Part shown: positions 33,341 through 50,778 of the stretch, in pieces | Position numbering within the stretch: the stretch's first letter is position 1 | How the letters are laid out: each line of letters starts with the position of its first letter | Assembly (NCBI GenBank): GCA_945833835.1 | Contig: CAMAFR010000003.1 | Span: 1 to 64,000, forward strand | From: an uncultured Bacteroides sp. | GTDB taxonomy: Bacteria > Bacteroidota > Bacteroidia > Bacteroidales > Bacteroidaceae | Length of the DNA stretch: 64,000 nucleotides | Direction of reading: 5' to 3' | Made by a program: the position numbers and the translations under genes | The notes under the pieces: generated by a model | What the model was told of the DNA's origin: nothing | The model's input: only the letters and a program-made list of their open reading frames with translations | Database searches by the model: none

Positions 33341-34719
33341 AACTGAACATGAAACGGAATACCCTTCTCCTCCTGGTCCTGCCAAGCCTCTTGGTCACCG
33401 CCGGTCAGGCACAGGAAACGCTGACCCTGCAACAGTGCCGCGAAATGGCGCTGCAGCACAACAAGGACATCGCCGCCGCCGAACGGCAGCGCCAACGGGC
33501 CGCCTATACCGTAAAAAGCACACGGGGCAACTTCTTCCCCGACCTGAGTCTGAACGGCACCGGTGCCTACAGCACCGGAAAGACCTCGATGGGCATTCCC
33601 GGAGGCTATCTGCCGACCGGCAACCTCGACGCCACCGGGCAACTGACCCCCGACGGACGGGTGGCCTATCTCCCCAACATTGACCTGCACGCCCGTTTAG
33701 GATGGCTCTACATGGGCGGCATCACCCTCGAACAGCCCATCTTCATGGGCGGCAAAATCGTCACCGCCTACCGCATGGCCCAACTGGGTGAAGGCATCGC
33801 CCGCCAGAACGAACGGCTGACCGCCACAGATATCCTGGTGAAGACCGACGAAGCCTATGCGCAAGCCGTAAAAGCCAAAGAAATGAAAACCGTGGCCGAC
33901 AGCTATCATACCCTACTGAAAGAGCTGTTGAAGAACGTGGAAAGCGGACGGCGGCACGGCATGACCTCCCGCAACGATGTCTTGAAAGTACAGGTCAAGC
34001 TGAACGAAAGCGAACTGAACGTGCGACGGGCCGAAAACGCCATCCGACTGTCGGCAATGAACCTGTGCCACTACATCGGACGGCCCTTGACCGCCGACAT
34101 ACAGGTATCCGACGCCCTGCCCGAAACGACGGCCGTCCCTGACGATGCCGACATCAGCCACCGTCCGGAATATGCCTTGCTGGAACAACAGGTGGCACTC
34201 GCCGGCCAACAGGTGAAGCTGCAACGGAGCGAACTGCTGCCCCAGATAGGCCTCCGGGCCTCTTACGACTACATGCACGGCATGAAAGTGAACCAAGACT
34301 ACCTGCTCAACCGGGGCAGCGCGACGGTGCTGCTGAATGTCTCGATACCGATTTTCCATTTTGGCGAACGCCATAATAAGGTGAAAGCCGCCAAAATGCA
34401 GTTGGAACAGACTCGGCTGGAACAGGAAAGCAAAAATGAACTGATGCGGCTCGAACTGACGCAAGCCCTCAACAACCTCGACGAGGCACGGCTGGAGAAA
34501 GCCCTTGCCGAGACCTCGTTGGAGCAGGCAGAGGAAAACCGCCGGGTCAGCCTCAAGCAATACGAGGCCGGACTGGAAACACTGTCGGACCACCTGGAGG
34601 CACAGGCCATCTGGCAGAAGGCCTATGAAACCAAAGTGGATGCCGCCTACCGCCTCTACCTGAGCCATCTGCATTACTTGAAGGCCGCCGGCAAACTGAC
34701 CGTAAGCGGACAATTCTAA
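33337..34719 (+). CDS. TolC family outer-membrane factor
   Basis: 'ETLTLQQCREMALQHNKDIAAAERQRQRA'; two-fold coiled-coil TolC-like protein. Confidence 0.94.
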   Translation: MKLNMKRNTLLLLVLPSLLVTAGQAQETLTLQQCREMALQHNKDIAAAERQRQRAAYTVKSTRGNFFPDLSLNGTGAYSTGKTSMGIPGGYLPTGNLDATGQLTPDGRVAYLPNIDLHARLGWLYMGGITLEQPIFMGGKIVTAYRMAQLGEGIARQNERLTATDILVKTDEAYAQAVKAKEMKTVADSYHTLLKELLKNVESGRRHGMTSRNDVLKVQVKLNESELNVRRAENAIRLSAMNLCHYIGRPLTADIQVSDALPETTAVPDDADISHRPEYALLEQQVALAGQQVKLQRSELLPQIGLRASYDYMHGMKVNQDYLLNRGSATVLLNVSIPIFHFGERHNKVKAAKMQLEQTRLEQESKNELMRLELTQALNNLDEARLEKALAETSLEQAEENRRVSLKQYEAGLETLSDHLEAQAIWQKAYETKVDAAYRLYLSHLHYLKAAGKLTVSGQF

Positions 34720-40730: not shown

Positions 40731-40778
40731 AAGAGGATGTGCCCCTGCTTTTCTCCGCATAGGGCACATCCTCTTTTT
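40731..40778 (+). terminator. Rho-independent terminator after the aminotransferase gene
   Basis: 14-bp perfect stem AAGAGGATGTGCCC/GGGCACATCCTCTT (40731-40744/40762-40775), T-run. Confidence 0.85.
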
Positions 40779-40865
40779 CATAGCTGTCCCCTTCCGCATC
40801 GGGTGCCAAAACACCTTCCCCATTTTGCCATTACAGAAAAAATACCGACCTTTGCAAAAAGCAAT

Positions 40866-43800
40866 ATGGAGAGGATTATGCGTAACTACCTATTATTTTT
40901 CCTGTATGGACTGCTGATGGCGGTCACGCCTGTCCCGGCACAGATTTTCAAATACATCAATACCGACAACGGACTGGGCAGCCGTCGTGTTCTCGCCATC
41001 GAACAGGACTCCTACGGATATATGTGGATCTTGAACCACAAAGGCATTGACCGTTACGATGGCAGCCAGTTTACCCATTACAAATTGCAGGAGAACGGGA
41101 AAGACCTTTATTTCTATCCAGACATGCACCACCTGCGCATGGACGACCAGGATGAGTTGTGGGAATATGGAAAGGACGGCCGCATTTTCCGTTTTGATGA
41201 CCAGAAAGACATCTTCGAACCCGTCTTCCAATTGCGTACCGTTTATCCGCAAGTCCAGAGCACCCCCATCTCGGCGGTCTATTTCGATGTACACGGAGGC
41301 ATCTGGTTCGCTTGCGGCCAGTTGCTGGTGGTCTACAACACCAAGACAGGACAAAGCACCCTCGTGTCGGAACAAATCAGCGAACCGATTCTTGCCATCA
41401 CCTGCGACGGAGAAGACAACTATTTCTTTGCCGACAATTATGCCATCCGCCAGACAGTCTACAAAGACGGGCAGCTGGTGGACATACGGAAAATCATCCA
41501 TCCGGACATTTTCCAAATCAACTATATCTATTACCACGCACACAGCCGGCAGTTGCTGATCAACACCTTGCGGAACGGCCTCATGCTGATGGACCCGGAG
41601 ACAGACACGTTCCGATCCTTGGAGACCCAACTGAAAGACATCTGCATCAACACCATCAAGCCTTATCCGGGACATGACGATGAAGTGCTGATCGCCACCG
41701 ACGGCGACGGCGTGTACCGGCTGGATCTCCGTAACGGCCGGCTGAACCGTTTCCTACAAGAAAATGCCGCCCAACCCAACCAGATGAACGGTAGTATCGT
41801 GAAAGACCTGCTCATCGACAATGACTTCCGGATATGGAGTGTCATCTATCCGACAGGCATCACCGTCTACTCCGAAAAATACCCCGCTTACCAATGGATC
41901 AAACACTCCCACGGTGATTCTTCATTGGTAGACAACCGTGTCAATGCCATCACACAGGATACGGAAGGAGATATCTGGTTTGCCACCAGCGACGGCATCA
42001 GCTGCTACACCCCTTCCACTCACCGCTGGAAGAATTATTTCGATGAGAGCTCCGACCAAAGCCCGAACCGTAACCGCATCTTCACCTCCATCTGCGAGGT
42101 GAAGCCGGGCATCATCGTGGCAGGTGGCTACATGGCCGGCACTTATTTGATTGACAAGCATAACGGACGGGTAGAGCGCAGCATCAACCTGATTGCCCAT
42201 CCGCAAGATCTGCCCGACCAATATATCCGCAGCATCATTGTCGGCAAGGACAGCACCATCTGGGCAGGGGGCGCACGCTATCTGACCTCGTTCAATTCCG
42301 CTACCCGCCAGACCACGCAATATGCCACTTCTTACCCCATCGTCTATCTCAAGGAGAAAGATGAAACGGCCCTATGGGTAGGCACCATCGACGGCCTTTT
42401 CCTATTCGACCGAAACACCCAGAAACTGAAACGTTACAACTGCGGATTCCAGATAGGATGCGTGACCACCATCTACCAAAGCGCGGATGGCAGGACCACC
42501 TATATCGGGACGTATGGCAACGGTCTGTTTATCATTGACACCCGCACCGGCAGAACCGAACATTTCCACAAGGAGAACTGTGGATTGGAGAACAACAACA
42601 TCTACACCATTGTCCCCAACAAATACGATGACCTATTTCTCGGAACAGAAAACGGACTGACGCTCTACGACCACACCAAACGGAAATTCATCATCTGGAC
42701 CAAGGAACAGGGACTGCTGGCCGCCAGTTTCAACCAGGATGCCGGCATCCGCACCAAAGACGGGAAGCTGATATTCGGCACCAACGAAGGGGCCATCTTG
42801 CTCAACGACAGCACCTCATTGATAGAGGACTTTAACTCACACATGGTGCTGACCGACCTGCACATCATGTACAGGGCTGTGCATCCCCAGGAAAAGAATT
42901 CCCCACTGACCCTGCCGCTGGATGACACCGAACAGATTGTACTGAAATACAAGGAGAACACGTTTTCCATCAATGTGTCTTCCATCAACTACGACCATGC
43001 GTCAAGCATCCATTACAGCTGGAAGCTGGAAGGCTTCTACGATGAATGGACCCCTCCTTCCGACTACAACCTGATACGCTACACCAACCTGTCGCCGGGT
43101 GATTATACCCTGCGCATCCGCTCTATCCAGACCAACAGCAACACGGTGCTGGAAGAACGCACCCTGCGGATTCACGTCAATCGTCCGTTCTGGCGGTCGG
43201 TATGGGCCTATCTGTTGTACTCCCTGCTGCTGACGGTTATCCTGTATGCGTGGTTCCGCTACCAGATCATACGGCGTGACCGGAAAACTTCCCAGGAGAA
43301 GATCAATTTCTTCATCCACACGGCCCACGATATCCGGACACCGCTGACGCTCATCAAGGCACCATTGGGCGAGATTCTCAACAACGAACAGCTGAGTGAG
43401 CAGGGAATCGTCAACATCAACCTGGCTTTGCAGAATACCGATAACCTTTCTACATTGACCAACAATCTGATGAATTTCCAAAAAGAGGAAATGTACAGTT
43501 CAAAAGTATTGGTCACCAAGACAGAACTGAAAGAATACCTCTCACAATATCTGGTCCAATTCAAGAATTACGCCACTCAAAAAGGGATTGACCTACAGTT
43601 TCATTGCTCTTTCGAACGGTTGGACGTGTGGATAGACCATACCAAAATGGATTCCATCCTACGCAACCTGATCAGCAACGCCCTGAAATATACTCCCCAG
43701 GGGGGACAAGTGCGACTGACAGCCAGCTGCACGAAAAGCCATTGGCACCTGTCGGTCAGTGATACGGGTATCGGTATCCCTAAGCAGGAGCAGAAGAAAC

Positions 43801-44855
43801 TGTTCAAGTCCCTGTTCCGTGGCAGAAACGCCACCAACCAGCTCATTACCGGAGCAGGAGTGGGTATGCTGCTGACCTACCGCCTGATTAAAAACCACGG
43901 TGGCAAAATCAACTTCAGCAGTACCGAGAACGTGGGTACGGACTTCTACCTCAACTTCCCCATACACAGCAAGCTCTATTCCTATAAGGATGAAAATGCA
44001 GAAGCATTGTCCCCATCTGTCACAATAGACACCGTGGAAGTGCCTCACAACATCATCCCCCAACTGCAACAGCCCAAGCAAACCGATGCCCCACATCTGC
44101 TCATCGTGGAGGACAACCAGAGCCTGTGCGCTTTCCTGGCACAAAGCCTGTCGGACAGTTATTTCGTGGATACTGCCGGCAACGGACAGGAGGCGCTGGA
44201 ACACATCCGGCAACGGCATCCGGACCTCATCGTCTCGGACGTGATGATGCCGATTATGGACGGTATGGAATTGTGCGCAGCCGTCAAAGGCAACATAGAA
44301 ACCAGTCATATCGCCTTCATCCTGCTGACGGCACTGGCCGACCGGGATGACATCCTAAAAGGACTGGACACCCGGGCGGACCTTTACATCGTGAAGCCTT
44401 TTGACCTGCTTGTACTGAAAGCGAATATCTTCAACCTGCTGGAGAACAGAAGGATGTTACGCAAGAAATTACAGCAGATGATGGCACTGCCCGAATCGGT
44501 CACCGAACAGCTTGACCTTCCGTCGGCTTTGGACCAGAAATTCCTGCAAGACATCACTGACTACATCAAGCAAAACCTGGACAACGAACTGACAGTCGAC
44601 AGCCTGTGTGCCCACATGAACATGAGCCGTACCAGTTTCTACAATAAAATGAAGTCACTGGCAGGCATTGCGCCCAACGACTTCATACGCAACATCCGTA
44701 TGCGTGAAGCTGCCCTCCTGCTGCGCAGCCAGCAGTATTCTGTCAGCGAGGTGGCAGACATGACAGGATTTGCCGACCCCAAGTATTTCACAGACACATT
44801 CAAGAAATTCTTTGGCATGACTCCCAGCAAGTATAAACAACAAAAGGAAGTGTGA
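40866..44855 (+). CDS. Hybrid two-component system sensor/regulator (HTCS)
   Basis: N-terminal beta-propeller repeats, Y_Y_Y domain, HisKA 'FFIHTAHDIRTPLTLIKAPL', HATPase 'DTGIGIPKQEQKKLF', receiver 'LIVSDVMMPIMDGMEL', C-terminal AraC HTH. Start at 40866 or 40878. Confidence 0.95.
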   Translation: MERIMRNYLLFFLYGLLMAVTPVPAQIFKYINTDNGLGSRRVLAIEQDSYGYMWILNHKGIDRYDGSQFTHYKLQENGKDLYFYPDMHHLRMDDQDELWEYGKDGRIFRFDDQKDIFEPVFQLRTVYPQVQSTPISAVYFDVHGGIWFACGQLLVVYNTKTGQSTLVSEQISEPILAITCDGEDNYFFADNYAIRQTVYKDGQLVDIRKIIHPDIFQINYIYYHAHSRQLLINTLRNGLMLMDPETDTFRSLETQLKDICINTIKPYPGHDDEVLIATDGDGVYRLDLRNGRLNRFLQENAAQPNQMNGSIVKDLLIDNDFRIWSVIYPTGITVYSEKYPAYQWIKHSHGDSSLVDNRVNAITQDTEGDIWFATSDGISCYTPSTHRWKNYFDESSDQSPNRNRIFTSICEVKPGIIVAGGYMAGTYLIDKHNGRVERSINLIAHPQDLPDQYIRSIIVGKDSTIWAGGARYLTSFNSATRQTTQYATSYPIVYLKEKDETALWVGTIDGLFLFDRNTQKLKRYNCGFQIGCVTTIYQSADGRTTYIGTYGNGLFIIDTRTGRTEHFHKENCGLENNNIYTIVPNKYDDLFLGTENGLTLYDHTKRKFIIWTKEQGLLAASFNQDAGIRTKDGKLIFGTNEGAILLNDSTSLIEDFNSHMVLTDLHIMYRAVHPQEKNSPLTLPLDDTEQIVLKYKENTFSINVSSINYDHASSIHYSWKLEGFYDEWTPPSDYNLIRYTNLSPGDYTLRIRSIQTNSNTVLEERTLRIHVNRPFWRSVWAYLLYSLLLTVILYAWFRYQIIRRDRKTSQEKINFFIHTAHDIRTPLTLIKAPLGEILNNEQLSEQGIVNINLALQNTDNLSTLTNNLMNFQKEEMYSSKVLVTKTELKEYLSQYLVQFKNYATQKGIDLQFHCSFERLDVWIDHTKMDSILRNLISNALKYTPQGGQVRLTASCTKSHWHLSVSDTGIGIPKQEQKKLFKSLFRGRNATNQLITGAGVGMLLTYRLIKNHGGKINFSSTENVGTDFYLNFPIHSKLYSYKDENAEALSPSVTIDTVEVPHNIIPQLQQPKQTDAPHLLIVEDNQSLCAFLAQSLSDSYFVDTAGNGQEALEHIRQRHPDLIVSDVMMPIMDGMELCAAVKGNIETSHIAFILLTALADRDDILKGLDTRADLYIVKPFDLLVLKANIFNLLENRRMLRKKLQQMMALPESVTEQLDLPSALDQKFLQDITDYIKQNLDNELTVDSLCAHMNMSRTSFYNKMKSLAGIAPNDFIRNIRMREAALLLRSQQYSVSEVADMTGFADPKYFTDTFKKFFGMTPSKYKQQKEV

Positions 44856-44886: not shown

Positions 44887-45453
44887 ATGAATTTCTATTT
44901 ACAATCTTTTCTCATTTTCTCCCGGATAGGCATGTTTACCATTGGCGGAGGCTATGCCATGGTACCCTTGATAGAGGCAGAAATCGTCGACAAGCGGAAG
45001 TGGGTTCCGAAAGAAGAATTCATCGACCTGCTGGCACTGGCCCAAACGGTGCCCGGCATTTTTGCCGTCAATATCGCCATCTTCATCGGCTACAAGCTCC
45101 GTAAGTTCTGGGGAGCCTTCTGGATGGCACTGGGCACCATTCTGCCCTCTTTTGTCATCATGCTGGCCATAGCTCTGTTCTTCCAGCAGTTCAAACATCT
45201 GGAGACCGTAGAACATATCTTCAAAGGCATCCGCCCGGCCGTGGTGGCATTGATTGCCGCCCCCGGATTCCGCATGGCCAAATCGGCACGCATCAACCGC
45301 TACACCCTCTGGATCCCGGTGGCGGCCACCCTACTGATATGGCTGGCCGGCGTCTCCCCTATATACATTATTATATTATGTGGCGTAGGCGGCTACCTGT
45401 ATGGCAGGCAACGCCGCAAACTATCCGCCAGACGAAAGGAGGAAACGGTATGA
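44887..45453 (+). CDS. Chromate (CHR) family transporter, first half-protein
   Basis: 'FLIFSRIGMFTIGGGYAMVPLIEAEIVDKRKWVPKEEFIDLLALAQTVPGIFAVNIAIFIGYKLR'. Confidence 0.93.
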   Translation: MNFYLQSFLIFSRIGMFTIGGGYAMVPLIEAEIVDKRKWVPKEEFIDLLALAQTVPGIFAVNIAIFIGYKLRKFWGAFWMALGTILPSFVIMLAIALFFQQFKHLETVEHIFKGIRPAVVALIAAPGFRMAKSARINRYTLWIPVAATLLIWLAGVSPIYIIILCGVGGYLYGRQRRKLSARRKEETV

Positions 45454-47096
45454 TCGTCTTCTTGCAACTCTTCTACACTTTCTTCAAAATCGGCCTGTTC
45501 GGTTTTGGAGGGGGCTATGCCATGTTGTCCATGATTCAGGGCGAGGTCGTCAATCGTTACCACTGGCTCAGCTCCTATGAGTTTACGGATATTGTGGCCA
45601 TGAGCCAGATGACACCTGGACCCATCGGCATCAATGCCGCCACCTACATCGGCTATACGGCCGTCGTGAACGCAGGTTTCACACCGACCATCGGCATCAT
45701 CGGCTCGTTCGTCACAACATTGGCGGTCATTTTCCCCTCGTTCATCCTCATGATACTCATCAGCCGGTTTTTCCTGAAATACCAGAAACATCCTACCATC
45801 GCCGCCGTATTCAGCGGCCTGCGTCCCGGTGTCGTCGGCTTGCTGGGAGCCGCCGCGCTGGTCTTGATGAACCGGGAGAATTTCGGAACCGAGACCCGGC
45901 AGGTCCTCATCAGCTGTGTGTTGTTTTTGGGCACCTTCATCGCCTCCTACCGGTATAAGGTCAACCCCATCCTGCTTATCTGTCTTTGCGGAGGTATCGG
46001 GTTGCTGACCGCCTGCGGCAACGTCAAGGAAACCTCTGCCACCGCCACGGAATCCGGGGACACCCTCCGGTTAGGCTATGCCGAACACCTCCATCTGGTC
46101 GAGCACGAATATGCTACACAGGTAGTGATAGACAATCCTTGGAAAAACGGCCAAACCCTCCATACCTATTGGTTGGTGAACCGTAACGACACGGTTCCAG
46201 AAGGTCTGTCGGGAGGGACCGTTGTCCGGGTGCCACTGACGGAGGCCTTGGTGTACTCATCGGTACACTGCAGTCTGTTGCAACAACTGGAAGCCTTTTC
46301 GGCCCTACGGGGCGTATGCGACTTGGAATACATACAGCTGCCAGCCGTTATCGAGGGTTGTCAGGAAGGCCGCATCGCCAACTGTGGCAGCAGCATGAGT
46401 CCGAACATCGAACGGATTATCGACCTTCATCCCGACGCCATCCTGCTCTCACCGTTCGAAAACAGCGGAGGCTATGGCCGCATTGAGAAAACAGGCATTC
46501 CGCTGATAGAATGCGCCGACTATATGGAGACGTCTCCATTGGGACGTGCCGAGTGGATGAAGTTCTTCGGCAGGCTCTTTGGCAAAGGCGGGACAGCCGA
46601 CTCCTTGTTTGCAGTCGTCGAAAAAGAATACTTGACCCTGAAGGCATTGGCCGCCCAGACGACCGAAAAGCCTACCCTCTTGTGCGAACTGAAAAACGGA
46701 TCGGCCTGGTATGTCCCCGGCGGCAACAGTACCATGGGGCAACTTTATCGGGACGCTGGTGCCGACTATGTATTTGCCGACCGCACACAGAGCGGCTCCA
46801 TCCCCTTGTCGTTCGAAACCGTCTTCGACAAAGCACAACACGCCGACTTCTGGCTGATAAAATACCATCAGATGCAGGACAAGACGTATGCCGACTTGCA
46901 GTCCGATTATGCCCCCTACGCCCAATTTGACGCTTTCCGCCAACGCCACATCTATGGTTGCAATACAGGGAAAGTGCCTTTCTACGAAGAATCGCCCTTT
47001 CACCCCGAAGTGCTTCTGAAAGATTTGCTGCACATTTTCCATCCGTCCGTATTGCCGGAACACCATTTGAAGTATTTTCATCCTTTAGCCGAATGA
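45450..47096 (+). CDS. Apparent fusion: second CHR chromate-transporter half-protein plus FecB/BtuF-like ABC substrate-binding lipoprotein domain
   Basis: Residues ~1-185 CHR ('FFKIGLFGFGGGYAMLSMIQGEVV...MSQMTPGPIGINAATYIGY'), then 'NPILLICLCGGIGLLTAC(189)GNVKETS', then a helical-backbone SBP; no in-frame stop between; ATG overlaps the preceding stop (ATGA). Confidence 0.88.
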   Translation: MIVFLQLFYTFFKIGLFGFGGGYAMLSMIQGEVVNRYHWLSSYEFTDIVAMSQMTPGPIGINAATYIGYTAVVNAGFTPTIGIIGSFVTTLAVIFPSFILMILISRFFLKYQKHPTIAAVFSGLRPGVVGLLGAAALVLMNRENFGTETRQVLISCVLFLGTFIASYRYKVNPILLICLCGGIGLLTACGNVKETSATATESGDTLRLGYAEHLHLVEHEYATQVVIDNPWKNGQTLHTYWLVNRNDTVPEGLSGGTVVRVPLTEALVYSSVHCSLLQQLEAFSALRGVCDLEYIQLPAVIEGCQEGRIANCGSSMSPNIERIIDLHPDAILLSPFENSGGYGRIEKTGIPLIECADYMETSPLGRAEWMKFFGRLFGKGGTADSLFAVVEKEYLTLKALAAQTTEKPTLLCELKNGSAWYVPGGNSTMGQLYRDAGADYVFADRTQSGSIPLSFETVFDKAQHADFWLIKYHQMQDKTYADLQSDYAPYAQFDAFRQRHIYGCNTGKVPFYEESPFHPEVLLKDLLHIFHPSVLPEHHLKYFHPLAE

Positions 47097-48124
47097 AACC
47101 TACCGCCTCTTTCTATTACATCACCCTCAGCCTATGGGTCTGTCTGCTGTTCGCCGCCAACCTGCTGGCAGGTGCGGTAGACATTCCGGCCACCGAGGTT
47201 ATCCGTATCCTCTGTGGTGAAGCGCCCGCCAAAGCCGGTTGGGGATTTATTGTCTGGGAGTCGAGGGTACCACAGGCCGTGACAGCCTTGTTGTGCGGTG
47301 CCTCCCTGTCAGTCTGCGGATTACTGCTCCAGACAGTCTTCAGCAATCCGCTGGCAGACGCCTCCATTCTCGGCATCAGTTCGGGAGCCAGTCTGGGGGT
47401 GGCACTGGTGCTGCTTGCCGGCGGCGGAAGCATGGCCGGCGGTGCCCTTGCCTGGTCGGGCTTTCTGTCGGTCATAGCCGGCGCATTCATCGGGTCGGTC
47501 ATGGTCATGGGGCTTATCCTGTTCCTGTCCACCCTCATCCGCAACAGTGTCATGCTGCTCATTATCGGCATCATGATAGGATATGTCACCTCCTCGGCCA
47601 TCTCTCTGCTGAACTTCTTCGCTACCGCCGAAGGAGTCCACTCCTTCGTCATTTGGGGATTGGGCAACTTCAGTGGCATTTCCCTCAGACAATTACCCCT
47701 GTTCACTGCGGTCATTGTCATCGGACTGGCGGCGGCCGTTCTCCTGATCAAACCGCTGAACGCATTGCTACTGGGGCCACGCTACGCCGAGAACCTGGGC
47801 ATCAACCTCCAACGTACCCGCCACCTGCTGCTCTTGACGACCGGATGGCTGACGGCTGTCACCACGGCCTTTTGCGGTCCTATCGCCTTCATCGGCTTGG
47901 CGGTCCCTCACATTGCCCGTCTGCTGACAGGCACCTCCAACCACAACACCCTGCTGCCCGTCACGTTACTGGCCGGCAGTGCCACCGCACTGATGTGCAA
48001 TCTTATCTGTCTGTTGCCAGGCGAATGGGGGGTCATTCCGTTGAATGCCGTCACACCGCTGTTGGGAGCTCCCGTCATTCTCTATGTCATTATCCGCCAA
48101 CGCAAACTACACTATTTCAACTGA
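47093..48124 (+). CDS. FecCD-family ABC transporter permease
   Basis: 'ILGISSGASLGVALVLLAGG', 'GPIAFIGLAVPHIARLLTGTSNHNTLLPVTLLAGSATALMCNLI'; ATGA overlap with the fused SBP stop. Confidence 0.95.
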   Translation: MKPTASFYYITLSLWVCLLFAANLLAGAVDIPATEVIRILCGEAPAKAGWGFIVWESRVPQAVTALLCGASLSVCGLLLQTVFSNPLADASILGISSGASLGVALVLLAGGGSMAGGALAWSGFLSVIAGAFIGSVMVMGLILFLSTLIRNSVMLLIIGIMIGYVTSSAISLLNFFATAEGVHSFVIWGLGNFSGISLRQLPLFTAVIVIGLAAAVLLIKPLNALLLGPRYAENLGINLQRTRHLLLLTTGWLTAVTTAFCGPIAFIGLAVPHIARLLTGTSNHNTLLPVTLLAGSATALMCNLICLLPGEWGVIPLNAVTPLLGAPVILYVIIRQRKLHYFN

Positions 48125-48127
48125 ACC

Positions 48128-49159
48128 ATGAATACCCCTACAGCCATCATTGAAGGCAAGCAGCTGTCCATCGGCTACACCACCGGCCGCCATCGCCACA
48201 TCGTCCACGAAGAGCTCTGCTTCCGGTTACTGCCAGGCGAACTGACCTGCCTGTTAGGTGCCAACGGTTCCGGCAAGTCTACCCTGCTACGTACCCTCGC
48301 AGCGGCCCAGTCCCCCTTGTCCGGACAATTGGAACTGCTCGGGAAACCCATCTCCGCCTATTCGGAACGAGAACGCTCGCGCCACATCGGCGTCGTGCTG
48401 ACCGACAAGACCCAGACGGGGGGACTCAGCGTCTATGACCTGGTGGCACTGGGCAGACAACCCCATACCGGTTTCTTCGGACGGTTAAGGGCCGCCGACC
48501 ATCAAAAGGTGGAACAAGCGCTGGCAGCGGTGGGCATTGCCGACAAAGCCTGGTGTTATACCGCCGAGCTCTCAGACGGCGAACGTCAGAAAGCCATGAT
48601 CGCTAAAGCACTCGTGCAAGAATGTCCGCTCATCCTGCTCGATGAGCCCACTGCCTTTCTGGATGTGGTCAGCCGCATTGAAATCATGCACCTGCTGCAC
48701 CGGTTGGCAGCCGAAGAGCACCGTGCCATCCTGCTTTCTACCCATGACATCGACCTGGCACTGGTGCTGGCCGACCGCCTGTGGCTGCTGCGGAAAGAAA
48801 AGGGGATGCAATGTGGGGTGACAGAAGACCTCATCCTCAGCGGTGCGTTGGATCAGCTGTTCCCGCATCCGGACATTCTGTTCGACCGTATGCACGGCGT
48901 GTACTCACCCGCCGTGAAGGGCAGGCGTTCCATCCGTCTGCGTGCCGCCGACGAGACACTGCTCCATTGGACACAGAATGCCCTCAACCGCCACCACTTC
49001 TTGTGCCTGCCCTACGACAAGGAAGGTTCGGACCACCTGCCTCTACTGGAAGTATGGTCGCCCTGCCGGCTGGAATTGCATACCGTGAACGGCTTCCGGT
49101 CGTTCACCTCTTTCGAAAGTCTGCTGGAACACGCCGGGCACTTTGCGACAGACGTGTGA
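48128..49159 (+). CDS. FecE/BtuD-like ABC transporter ATPase with ~90-aa C-terminal extension
   Basis: Walker A 'GANGSGKST', signature 'LSDGERQKAMIAKALVQECPLILLDEPTAFLDVVSR'. Confidence 0.94.
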   Translation: MNTPTAIIEGKQLSIGYTTGRHRHIVHEELCFRLLPGELTCLLGANGSGKSTLLRTLAAAQSPLSGQLELLGKPISAYSERERSRHIGVVLTDKTQTGGLSVYDLVALGRQPHTGFFGRLRAADHQKVEQALAAVGIADKAWCYTAELSDGERQKAMIAKALVQECPLILLDEPTAFLDVVSRIEIMHLLHRLAAEEHRAILLSTHDIDLALVLADRLWLLRKEKGMQCGVTEDLILSGALDQLFPHPDILFDRMHGVYSPAVKGRRSIRLRAADETLLHWTQNALNRHHFLCLPYDKEGSDHLPLLEVWSPCRLELHTVNGFRSFTSFESLLEHAGHFATDV

Positions 49160-49326: not shown

Positions 49327-50778
49327 ATGATTACCGCAGAAAACATCTTATTGGTAGGTTCTATTCTTATATTTTGCAGCATTCTCATCAGCAAGACCGG
49401 CTACCGTTTCGGCATTCCCACCTTGCTGTTATTCCTGCTCGTCGGCATGCTCTTCGGCAGCGACGGGTTGGGCATACAGTTTGACAGTGCACACGATGCC
49501 CAGTTCATTGGCATGATTGCCCTCAGCATCATCCTCTTTGCCGGTGGTATGGACACCAAGCTGCAGGATGTGAAACCTGTCATGACCCAAGGTGTACTGC
49601 TGTCCACGGTAGGGGTCTTGCTCACGACCTTCCTCACCGGACTGTTCATCTTCTTCATCTCCGACCGTACCAGTGCCAACATTTCCATGGCATTGATGAC
49701 TTCCATGCTGCTGGCCGCCACCATGTCGTCTACCGACTCGGCCTCTGTCTTCAACCTGCTCCGTTCGCAGAAAATGAATCTGAAGCACAACCTCCGGCCC
49801 ATGCTGGAACTGGAAAGCGGAAGTAACGACCCCATGGCCTATATGTTGACCATTGTCCTGATTCAGGTGATCAGCAGCGGTAGCGAACTGAATGTCGAAG
49901 ACCTGATTCGCGACCTGCTGATACAGTTCTGTGTAGGAGGTGCCATCGGCTATGCTTTCGGGCGTTTCAGTGTATGGCTGATCAATCGTATCAACCTGCT
50001 CAACAGCTCGCTGTATCCCATCCTGCTGCTCAGCCTGGTCTTCATCACCTTCACCCTGACCGACCTGATGAAGGGCAACGGCTATCTGGCCGTCTACATC
50101 GCCGGGGCGGTAGTGGGCAATGCCAAGTTGGTGTTCCGCAAAGAAATCAACACCTTTATGAACGGACTGACATGGATGTTTCAGATCATCATGTTTCTGG
50201 CACTGGGGCTATTGGTCAACCCTCATGAAATGTTCGAGGTGGCAGGAGTCGCATTGCTCATCGGGGTGTTCATGATCATCGTGGCACGTCCCGTCAGTGT
50301 TTTCCTTTGCCTGCTGCCCTTCCGCGAGATGAGTGGCAAAGCCCGTCTGTTTGTCTCATGGGTCGGCCTGCGCGGAGCGGTTCCCATCATTTTTGCCACC
50401 TATCCGGTAGTGGCCGAAGTGCCGGGGTACAACCAGATTTTCAACATCGTCTTCTTTATCACCCTGATGTCACTCGTCGTACAGGGCATGAGCATCTCTA
50501 AAATGGCACGCTGGCTCCATCTGGACCTGCCGCAGGAAAAAGAAGGGAACGAATTTGGTGTGGAGCTACCCGATGAAATCGATTCCAAGCTGGAAGACCT
50601 GACACTGACCGAAGAAATGCTGGCCGGTGGCAACCGGTTGGCCGATATGAACATCGCCAAGGGTACGCTGGTCATGCTGGTCAAACGTGGCAAAGAATTC
50701 ATCATCCCCAACGGACAGGTGGAACTCAAGGCGGGCGACAAGCTGCTGTTCATCTCCGAGAACAAGCCCGAATCCTGA
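49327..50778 (+). CDS. Potassium/proton antiporter (CvrA/NhaP2-like) with C-terminal RCK_C domain
   Basis: 'ILLVGSILIFCSILISKTGYRFGIPTLLLFLLVGMLFGSDGLG', 'SWVGLRGAVPIIFATYPV'. Confidence 0.93.
   Translation: MITAENILLVGSILIFCSILISKTGYRFGIPTLLLFLLVGMLFGSDGLGIQFDSAHDAQFIGMIALSIILFAGGMDTKLQDVKPVMTQGVLLSTVGVLLTTFLTGLFIFFISDRTSANISMALMTSMLLAATMSSTDSASVFNLLRSQKMNLKHNLRPMLELESGSNDPMAYMLTIVLIQVISSGSELNVEDLIRDLLIQFCVGGAIGYAFGRFSVWLINRINLLNSSLYPILLLSLVFITFTLTDLMKGNGYLAVYIAGAVVGNAKLVFRKEINTFMNGLTWMFQIIMFLALGLLVNPHEMFEVAGVALLIGVFMIIVARPVSVFLCLLPFREMSGKARLFVSWVGLRGAVPIIFATYPVVAEVPGYNQIFNIVFFITLMSLVVQGMSISKMARWLHLDLPQEKEGNEFGVELPDEIDSKLEDLTLTEEMLAGGNRLADMNIAKGTLVMLVKRGKEFIIPNGQVELKAGDKLLFISENKPES

Follow-up and report, generated by a model that had tools for sequence, protein, structure and literature searches.

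A single gene in the window (the whole 64,000 nt stretch of DNA analysed herein, from an uncultured Bacteroides sp.) joins one half of a CHR-family (chromate-type) transporter, in frame, to a BtuF-type substrate-binding protein, with the last helix of the transporter half running directly into a lipobox. The fusion is under purifying selection and is shared with a second species, and from its predicted features the single gene is probably the source of two distinct membrane proteins (Table 1). As the sequence-only reading that preceded this analysis had proposed, the frame is uninterrupted, extending over 548 codons from an ATG at 45450 to a TGA at 47094–47096, and Pfam places both a CHR half-transporter (Chromate_transp, residues 5–185, 3.6e-51) and a binding protein (Peripla_BP_2, residues 308–504, 6.7e-26) within the one chain. 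The junction reads YRYKVNPILLICLCGGIGLLTACGNVKE, and the codon for Cys189, which closes the lipobox L-T-A-C, lies at 46014–46016, just where it had been located. The stop of CHR1 overlaps the ATG of the fused gene (ATGA, 45450–45453) and, as had also been noted, the ATG of the downstream permease overlaps its stop (ATGA, 47093–47096); with such overlaps on both sides, the four genes for CHR1, CHR2-BtuF, the permease and the ATPase appear to form a single compact operon, preceded by a hybrid two-component regulator. A regulator of this type is also found directly 5′ of the chr pair in several relatives (L126, L127, L128, L130 and L133), which suggests that it controls the pair.

Table 1. Features of the fusion locus (positions refer to the window unless a locus is named)
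Feature	Position	Strand	Evidence or remark
Hybrid two-component regulator	40737..44855	+	Pfam: Reg_prop, Y_Y_Y, HisKA, HATPase_c, Response_reg, HTH_18; just 5′ of chr genes
CHR half 1 (CHR1, N-terminal-type), partner of fused half	44887..45453	+	Pfam Chromate_transp 6.9e-52; TIGR00937 positions 1–175
Fused gene, CHR half 2 (CHR2) + BtuF, 548 aa	45450..47096	+	Open frame; Pfam; second species G013 (L002/L031)
CHR half 2 domain (C-terminal-type), residues 1–185	45450..46004	+	Pfam 5–185; TIGR00937 positions 203–365; alignment
Last CHR helix, residues 173–189, proposed hydrophobic core of lipoprotein signal	45966..46016	+	Junction alignment; model; dN/dS
Lipobox L186-T187-A188-C189	46005..46016	+	Sequence; L-T-S-C in G013; PWM score
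Linker, residues 190–205, fast-evolving, predicted disordered	46017..46064	+	dN/dS 0.60; pLDDT
BtuF-type binding domain, residues 206–548	46065..47093	+	Pfam Peripla_BP_2; pLDDT; Foldseek
FecCD-family permease, BtuC orthologue	47093..48124	+	Pfam FecCD; NCBIfam best match BtuC, below cut-off
ABC ATPase, BtuD orthologue	48128..49159	+	Pfam ABC_tran; gene order kept in relatives
Na+/H+ exchanger (tree marker; end point of G014 deletion)	49327..50778	+	Pfam
Possible btuF tail after CHR stop, G014	L126 2822–2945	-	~40 bases resembling 3′ end of G013 btuF

Both partners in the fusion belong to ordinary families. The CHR half matches PF02417 with 173.9 bits against a cut-off of 28.6, covering positions 1–166 of 166, retains the columns that are invariant among its homologues, and is adjoined at its 5′ side by its partner, CHR1. 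Matches of the CHR proteins to the NCBIfam chromate equivalogs fall far below cut-off, AlphaFold confidence for the half is low to moderate, and a Foldseek search with it returned no solved structural relative. A full-length, two-domain ChrA-like protein of 400 residues is encoded elsewhere in the genome of the second species (L209, G013:C48).

With regard to the binding domain, its earlier designation as FecB/BtuF-like holds for the fold and can be made more specific, as the gene context of relatives identifies it as a BtuF orthologue. The Peripla_BP_2 match scores 91.6 bits, the predicted structure has pLDDT values mostly >90 with a long central helix at residues 380–402, and Foldseek matches include BtuF (1n2z and 5ysc, E about 1e-9), placing the fold with BtuF and its relatives. 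NCBIfam gives the binding protein only a weak heme-SBP match, and the curated cut-offs for btuFCD are not reached. The proposed coupling of the binding protein to its ABC genes is supported, and their gene order is conserved in relatives. A cobalamin riboswitch (RF00174) lies 5′ of the orthologous binding protein in 7 of the 14 relatives scanned, directly so in L035 and with two genes between in the other riboswitch-bearing relatives (the intervening genes being inspected in L032, L037 and L048); in P. plebeius (L037) the products run from a TonB B12-type receptor (BtuB) and a DUF5074 protein to the binding protein, a permease (best match BtuC) and an ATPase. With orthologues placed behind a cobalamin riboswitch, BtuB and DUF5074, the best reading of the ABC genes is btuFCD, with BtuF as the fused cargo and B12 as the compound imported, an assignment that is well supported by gene context.

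In the window (44887–49159), btuFCD is found outside the riboswitch-btuB-DUF5074 locus of the relatives, behind the chr genes and the hybrid two-component regulator. No cobalamin riboswitch was detected between positions 34000 and 64000, and the single example found in this genome sits on another contig, 5′ of a TonB receptor plug domain. Given this displacement of btuFCD, B12 import in the lineage may no longer be under riboswitch control. A search of the window's own genome (assembly 89.6% complete) returned no second BtuF homologue, and the fused copy must therefore serve BtuCD.

The first search, of 60 related genomes and the window's own (G000), revealed one other fused genome, G013 (contig JAQXRG010000142.1), in which the match spans residues 1–548 at 72% identity with no stop. 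Its junction reads NPILLICLCGAIGLLTSCGNG, with a lipobox of L-T-S-C. Between the two species the whole gene displays a dS of about 1.45 and a dN/dS of 0.145. By part, dN/dS is lowest, at 0.065, across the last helix and its lipobox (residues 166–189); it is 0.098 in the CHR part and 0.138 in the binding domain, and reaches 0.60 in the linker right after the Cys. L186, T187 and C189 are identical, and the sole varying lipobox residue is A or S, both of which are permitted; half of the linker residues are kept. As the frame has remained open and constrained across this distance, the fusion has been selected. Recent decay of the fused gene is ruled out by the dN/dS values. No other spanning fusion occurs among the matches listed in 62 genus, 400 family, 395 order and 399 phylum genomes, overlapping sets that comprise ~1,200 genomes beyond the two fused species and in which a fused homologue would be expected near the top of the matches. 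Long frames in G017 and G014 (615 aa) and in G662 (664 aa), inspected in L018, L208 and L207, contain no fusion, being either separate genes or a free BtuF after an open stretch without CHR sequence.

Most relatives carry chr and btuF as two genes, in the order CHR1, CHR2, a gap, binding protein, permease and, in part, ATPase (L018, L049, L063 and L075). Their free CHR2 proteins end in GYLLY, GYLFF, GFLLF..., GYLLF... or similar, followed by a stop and without a lipobox, and the free binding protein starts at an ATG of its own, with a typical lipoprotein signal, e.g. MRKFLRFTPILWIAIFILSAC; the strict lipobox pattern is present in 79 of 89 distinct binding-protein N-termini, a count that includes both fused proteins. 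When the fusion is aligned with these, the sequence before the lipobox corresponds throughout to the last helix of CHR, and that from the Cys onward to the binding protein. By this comparison the separate genes are ancestral and the fusion is derived, and BtuF's own lipoprotein signal is gone, with the final CHR helix in its place. Most simply, a deletion in an ancestor would have joined chr2 and btuF within a common Leu-Leu stretch, taking out the CHR stop, the spacer, and the start codon and signal peptide of btuF. Linkage of chr and btu genes recurs in various orientations, with btuD convergent to the chr pair in L114, L117 and L128.

A third species, G014, nested in the fused clade, probably illustrates the partial undoing of this arrangement. 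All trees give (G000,(G013,G014)), namely those of gyrB (99/92), the antiporter (97/95), CHR1 (100/99) and CHR2 (91/86). In G014, btuF, btuC and btuD are missing from the chr locus, and CHR2 ends ...GAIGLLTS-YA-stop, at the position of the lipobox, with the antiporter next; in the junction alignment, GLLT[AS] at the CHR2 end is confined to G000, G013 and G014. The tree and the common junction together indicate a single origin, and the most economical history is one fusion with one later loss, in G014. The CHR half of G014 has a dN/dS of 0.054 against that of G013, and such constraint after loss of btuFCD indicates that it works without BtuF. Past the CHR stop there may be a short remnant of the btuF tail, as support and not as proof: compared with the end of G013 btuF the match was reached in 0 of 2000 shuffles, and when all 3.2 kb were searched blind the result was not significant (33 vs a shuffled maximum of 36). 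A distant second BtuF-like protein (about 35% identical) and a permease lie in G014 beside a cobyrinate a,c-diamide synthase-like gene (L208, G014:C75), and this locus possibly explains how G014 manages without btuFCD.

Since BtuF requires the periplasm for its function, the topology of the CHR2 end matters for any mechanism. In CHR2 proteins the loop before the last helix averages a charge of +1.8 and the tail -0.1, and in CHR1 the charges are reversed (loop -0.1, tail +2.5); these statistics support the in-to-out orientation that had been assigned to the last helix. Within the literature covered, nothing on CHR topology itself was found, and the opposite topology of paired halves is cited in PMC5640608; taken with the charges, this citation would put the CHR2 end, and with it the junction, on the periplasmic side. 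The last helix should end at the membrane–periplasm interface, in agreement with the location of the lipobox Cys described in PMC8048626. In the AlphaFold model the helix spans residues 173–188, and pLDDT falls <50 at 188–200. Both LTAC and LTSC, placed after a hydrophobic helix, fit the consensus [LV][ASTVI][GAS]C (PMC8048626), and the lipobox is kept in both fused species; the idea of a helix common to the transporter and a lipoprotein signal is supported. A position weight matrix built on 132 lipoproteins, a set rich in BtuF homologues, scores the sites at 20.0 bits (G000) and 23.7 bits (G013), the 15th and 28th percentiles among lipoproteins (mean 28.2, 5% limit 15.1); no other Cys in CHR halves scores above 6.4. 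The site would accordingly rank as adequate, not strong.

In the mechanism proposed, one polypeptide is made and its CHR part inserts in the membrane, with the last helix spanning from cytoplasm to periplasm and taking BtuF across. Having basic residues (YRYK), a hydrophobic core and a lipobox, this helix would then serve as a lipoprotein signal; Lgt would lipidate Cys189 and signal peptidase II would cut before it, freeing a lipid-anchored BtuF for BtuCD and leaving a CHR half with the same end point as its free counterparts. We lean towards such a polyprotein, in which signal peptidase II, and not I, splits a transporter half from a lipoprotein and the signal stays a working part of the transporter. 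An lspA match is present in the genome, below its curated cut-off. Counting against a cut are the matrix score, adequate but not strong, and the packing of the last helix within the transporter, which may limit access by Lgt and LspA. The main rival, which we consider possible although doubtful, is that the fusion stays whole, BtuF hanging from the last CHR helix by a flexible linker and Cys189 being either a leftover or lipidated without a cut. The single frame, the roughly 15 disordered residues that follow Cys189 as a linker and the substrate-binding domains that hang on some importers in the same way all accord with a tether, as does the inferred nature of the cleavage. A tether has no need of a lipobox, however, yet L186, T187 and C189 are unchanged, with only a permitted A/S exchange, whereas the adjoining linker is only half kept; nor is there an obvious gain in binding BtuF one-to-one to CHR instead of BtuC.

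We give little chance to additional, separate production of BtuF by initiation inside the frame, for example at ATG140 or a nearby GTG or TTG. The sequence-only reading had seen no in-frame ATG near the junction and had named a GTG at about V157 as the nearest plausible internal start; the nearest ATG is codon 140, and the GTG is missing in G013. Codon 140 is an ATG in both fused species and the only ATG, GTG or TTG common to them between codons 102 and 215, so the claim that a usable conserved start is lacking stands: this codon specifies a conserved CHR-family Met, and initiation there would give a 49-residue leader with two hydrophobic stretches, where free BtuF genes have their ATG shortly before the lipobox Cys. 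Internal initiation thus appears unlikely. The lipobox fit, the matrix score, the topology and the dearth of usable internal starts together favour lipidation and cleavage at Cys189 by Lgt and signal peptidase II, which we regard as likely. That the fusion arose from misassembly, a sequencing error or an accident confined to one strain is scarcely credible: the draft assembly that holds the window is incomplete (95 contigs, 89.6% complete) and most relatives do have two genes, including the separate ATG-started binding protein that had been named as a sign of artefact, but the identical junction position recurs under purifying selection in a second species, from a separate assembly, at a dS of about 1.45.

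Should the proposed cleavage hold, a lipoprotein signal does not have to be a disposable segment at the N-terminus, since here it would lie at residues 186–189, behind a polytopic domain, and a structural transporter helix would suffice. This would bear directly on substrate recognition by Lgt and signal peptidase II, and predictors that read N-termini only would overlook such lipoproteins. The three species also offer a natural series (separate, fused, fused then cut back) for studying the rise and undoing of gene fusions. Within the literature covered, neither a lipoprotein signal formed by a transporter half's last helix nor a precedent for signal peptidase II cutting the end of a polytopic protein was found described.

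Amongst known systems, the cytochrome b/c1 precursor encoded by Bradyrhizobium fbcH is a membrane polyprotein cut by signal peptidase, and likewise holds a polytopic and an exported protein in one frame with an internal signal sequence. That signal is an ordinary one, whereas the enzyme proposed here is signal peptidase II acting at a lipobox, and the signal is the transporter's own last helix. In some ABC importers a substrate-binding domain is similarly carried on a membrane protein, there as a lasting tethered fusion with its own permease; in the present case the fusion partner is a transporter half unrelated to it. Paired short-chain CHR proteins (PF02417), such as the B. subtilis pair, are likewise encoded by neighbouring half-size genes, the N-type first and the C-type second, and show opposite C-terminal charge bias (opposite topology being cited in PMC5640608), but here the C-type half runs without a stop into a second protein. 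Finally, the genes are orthologous to, and in identical order with, those of the BtuF-BtuC-BtuD importer of Bacteroides, from which the present system differs in that BtuF is without its own signal peptide and the genes stand behind chr genes, with no riboswitch in 34000–64000.
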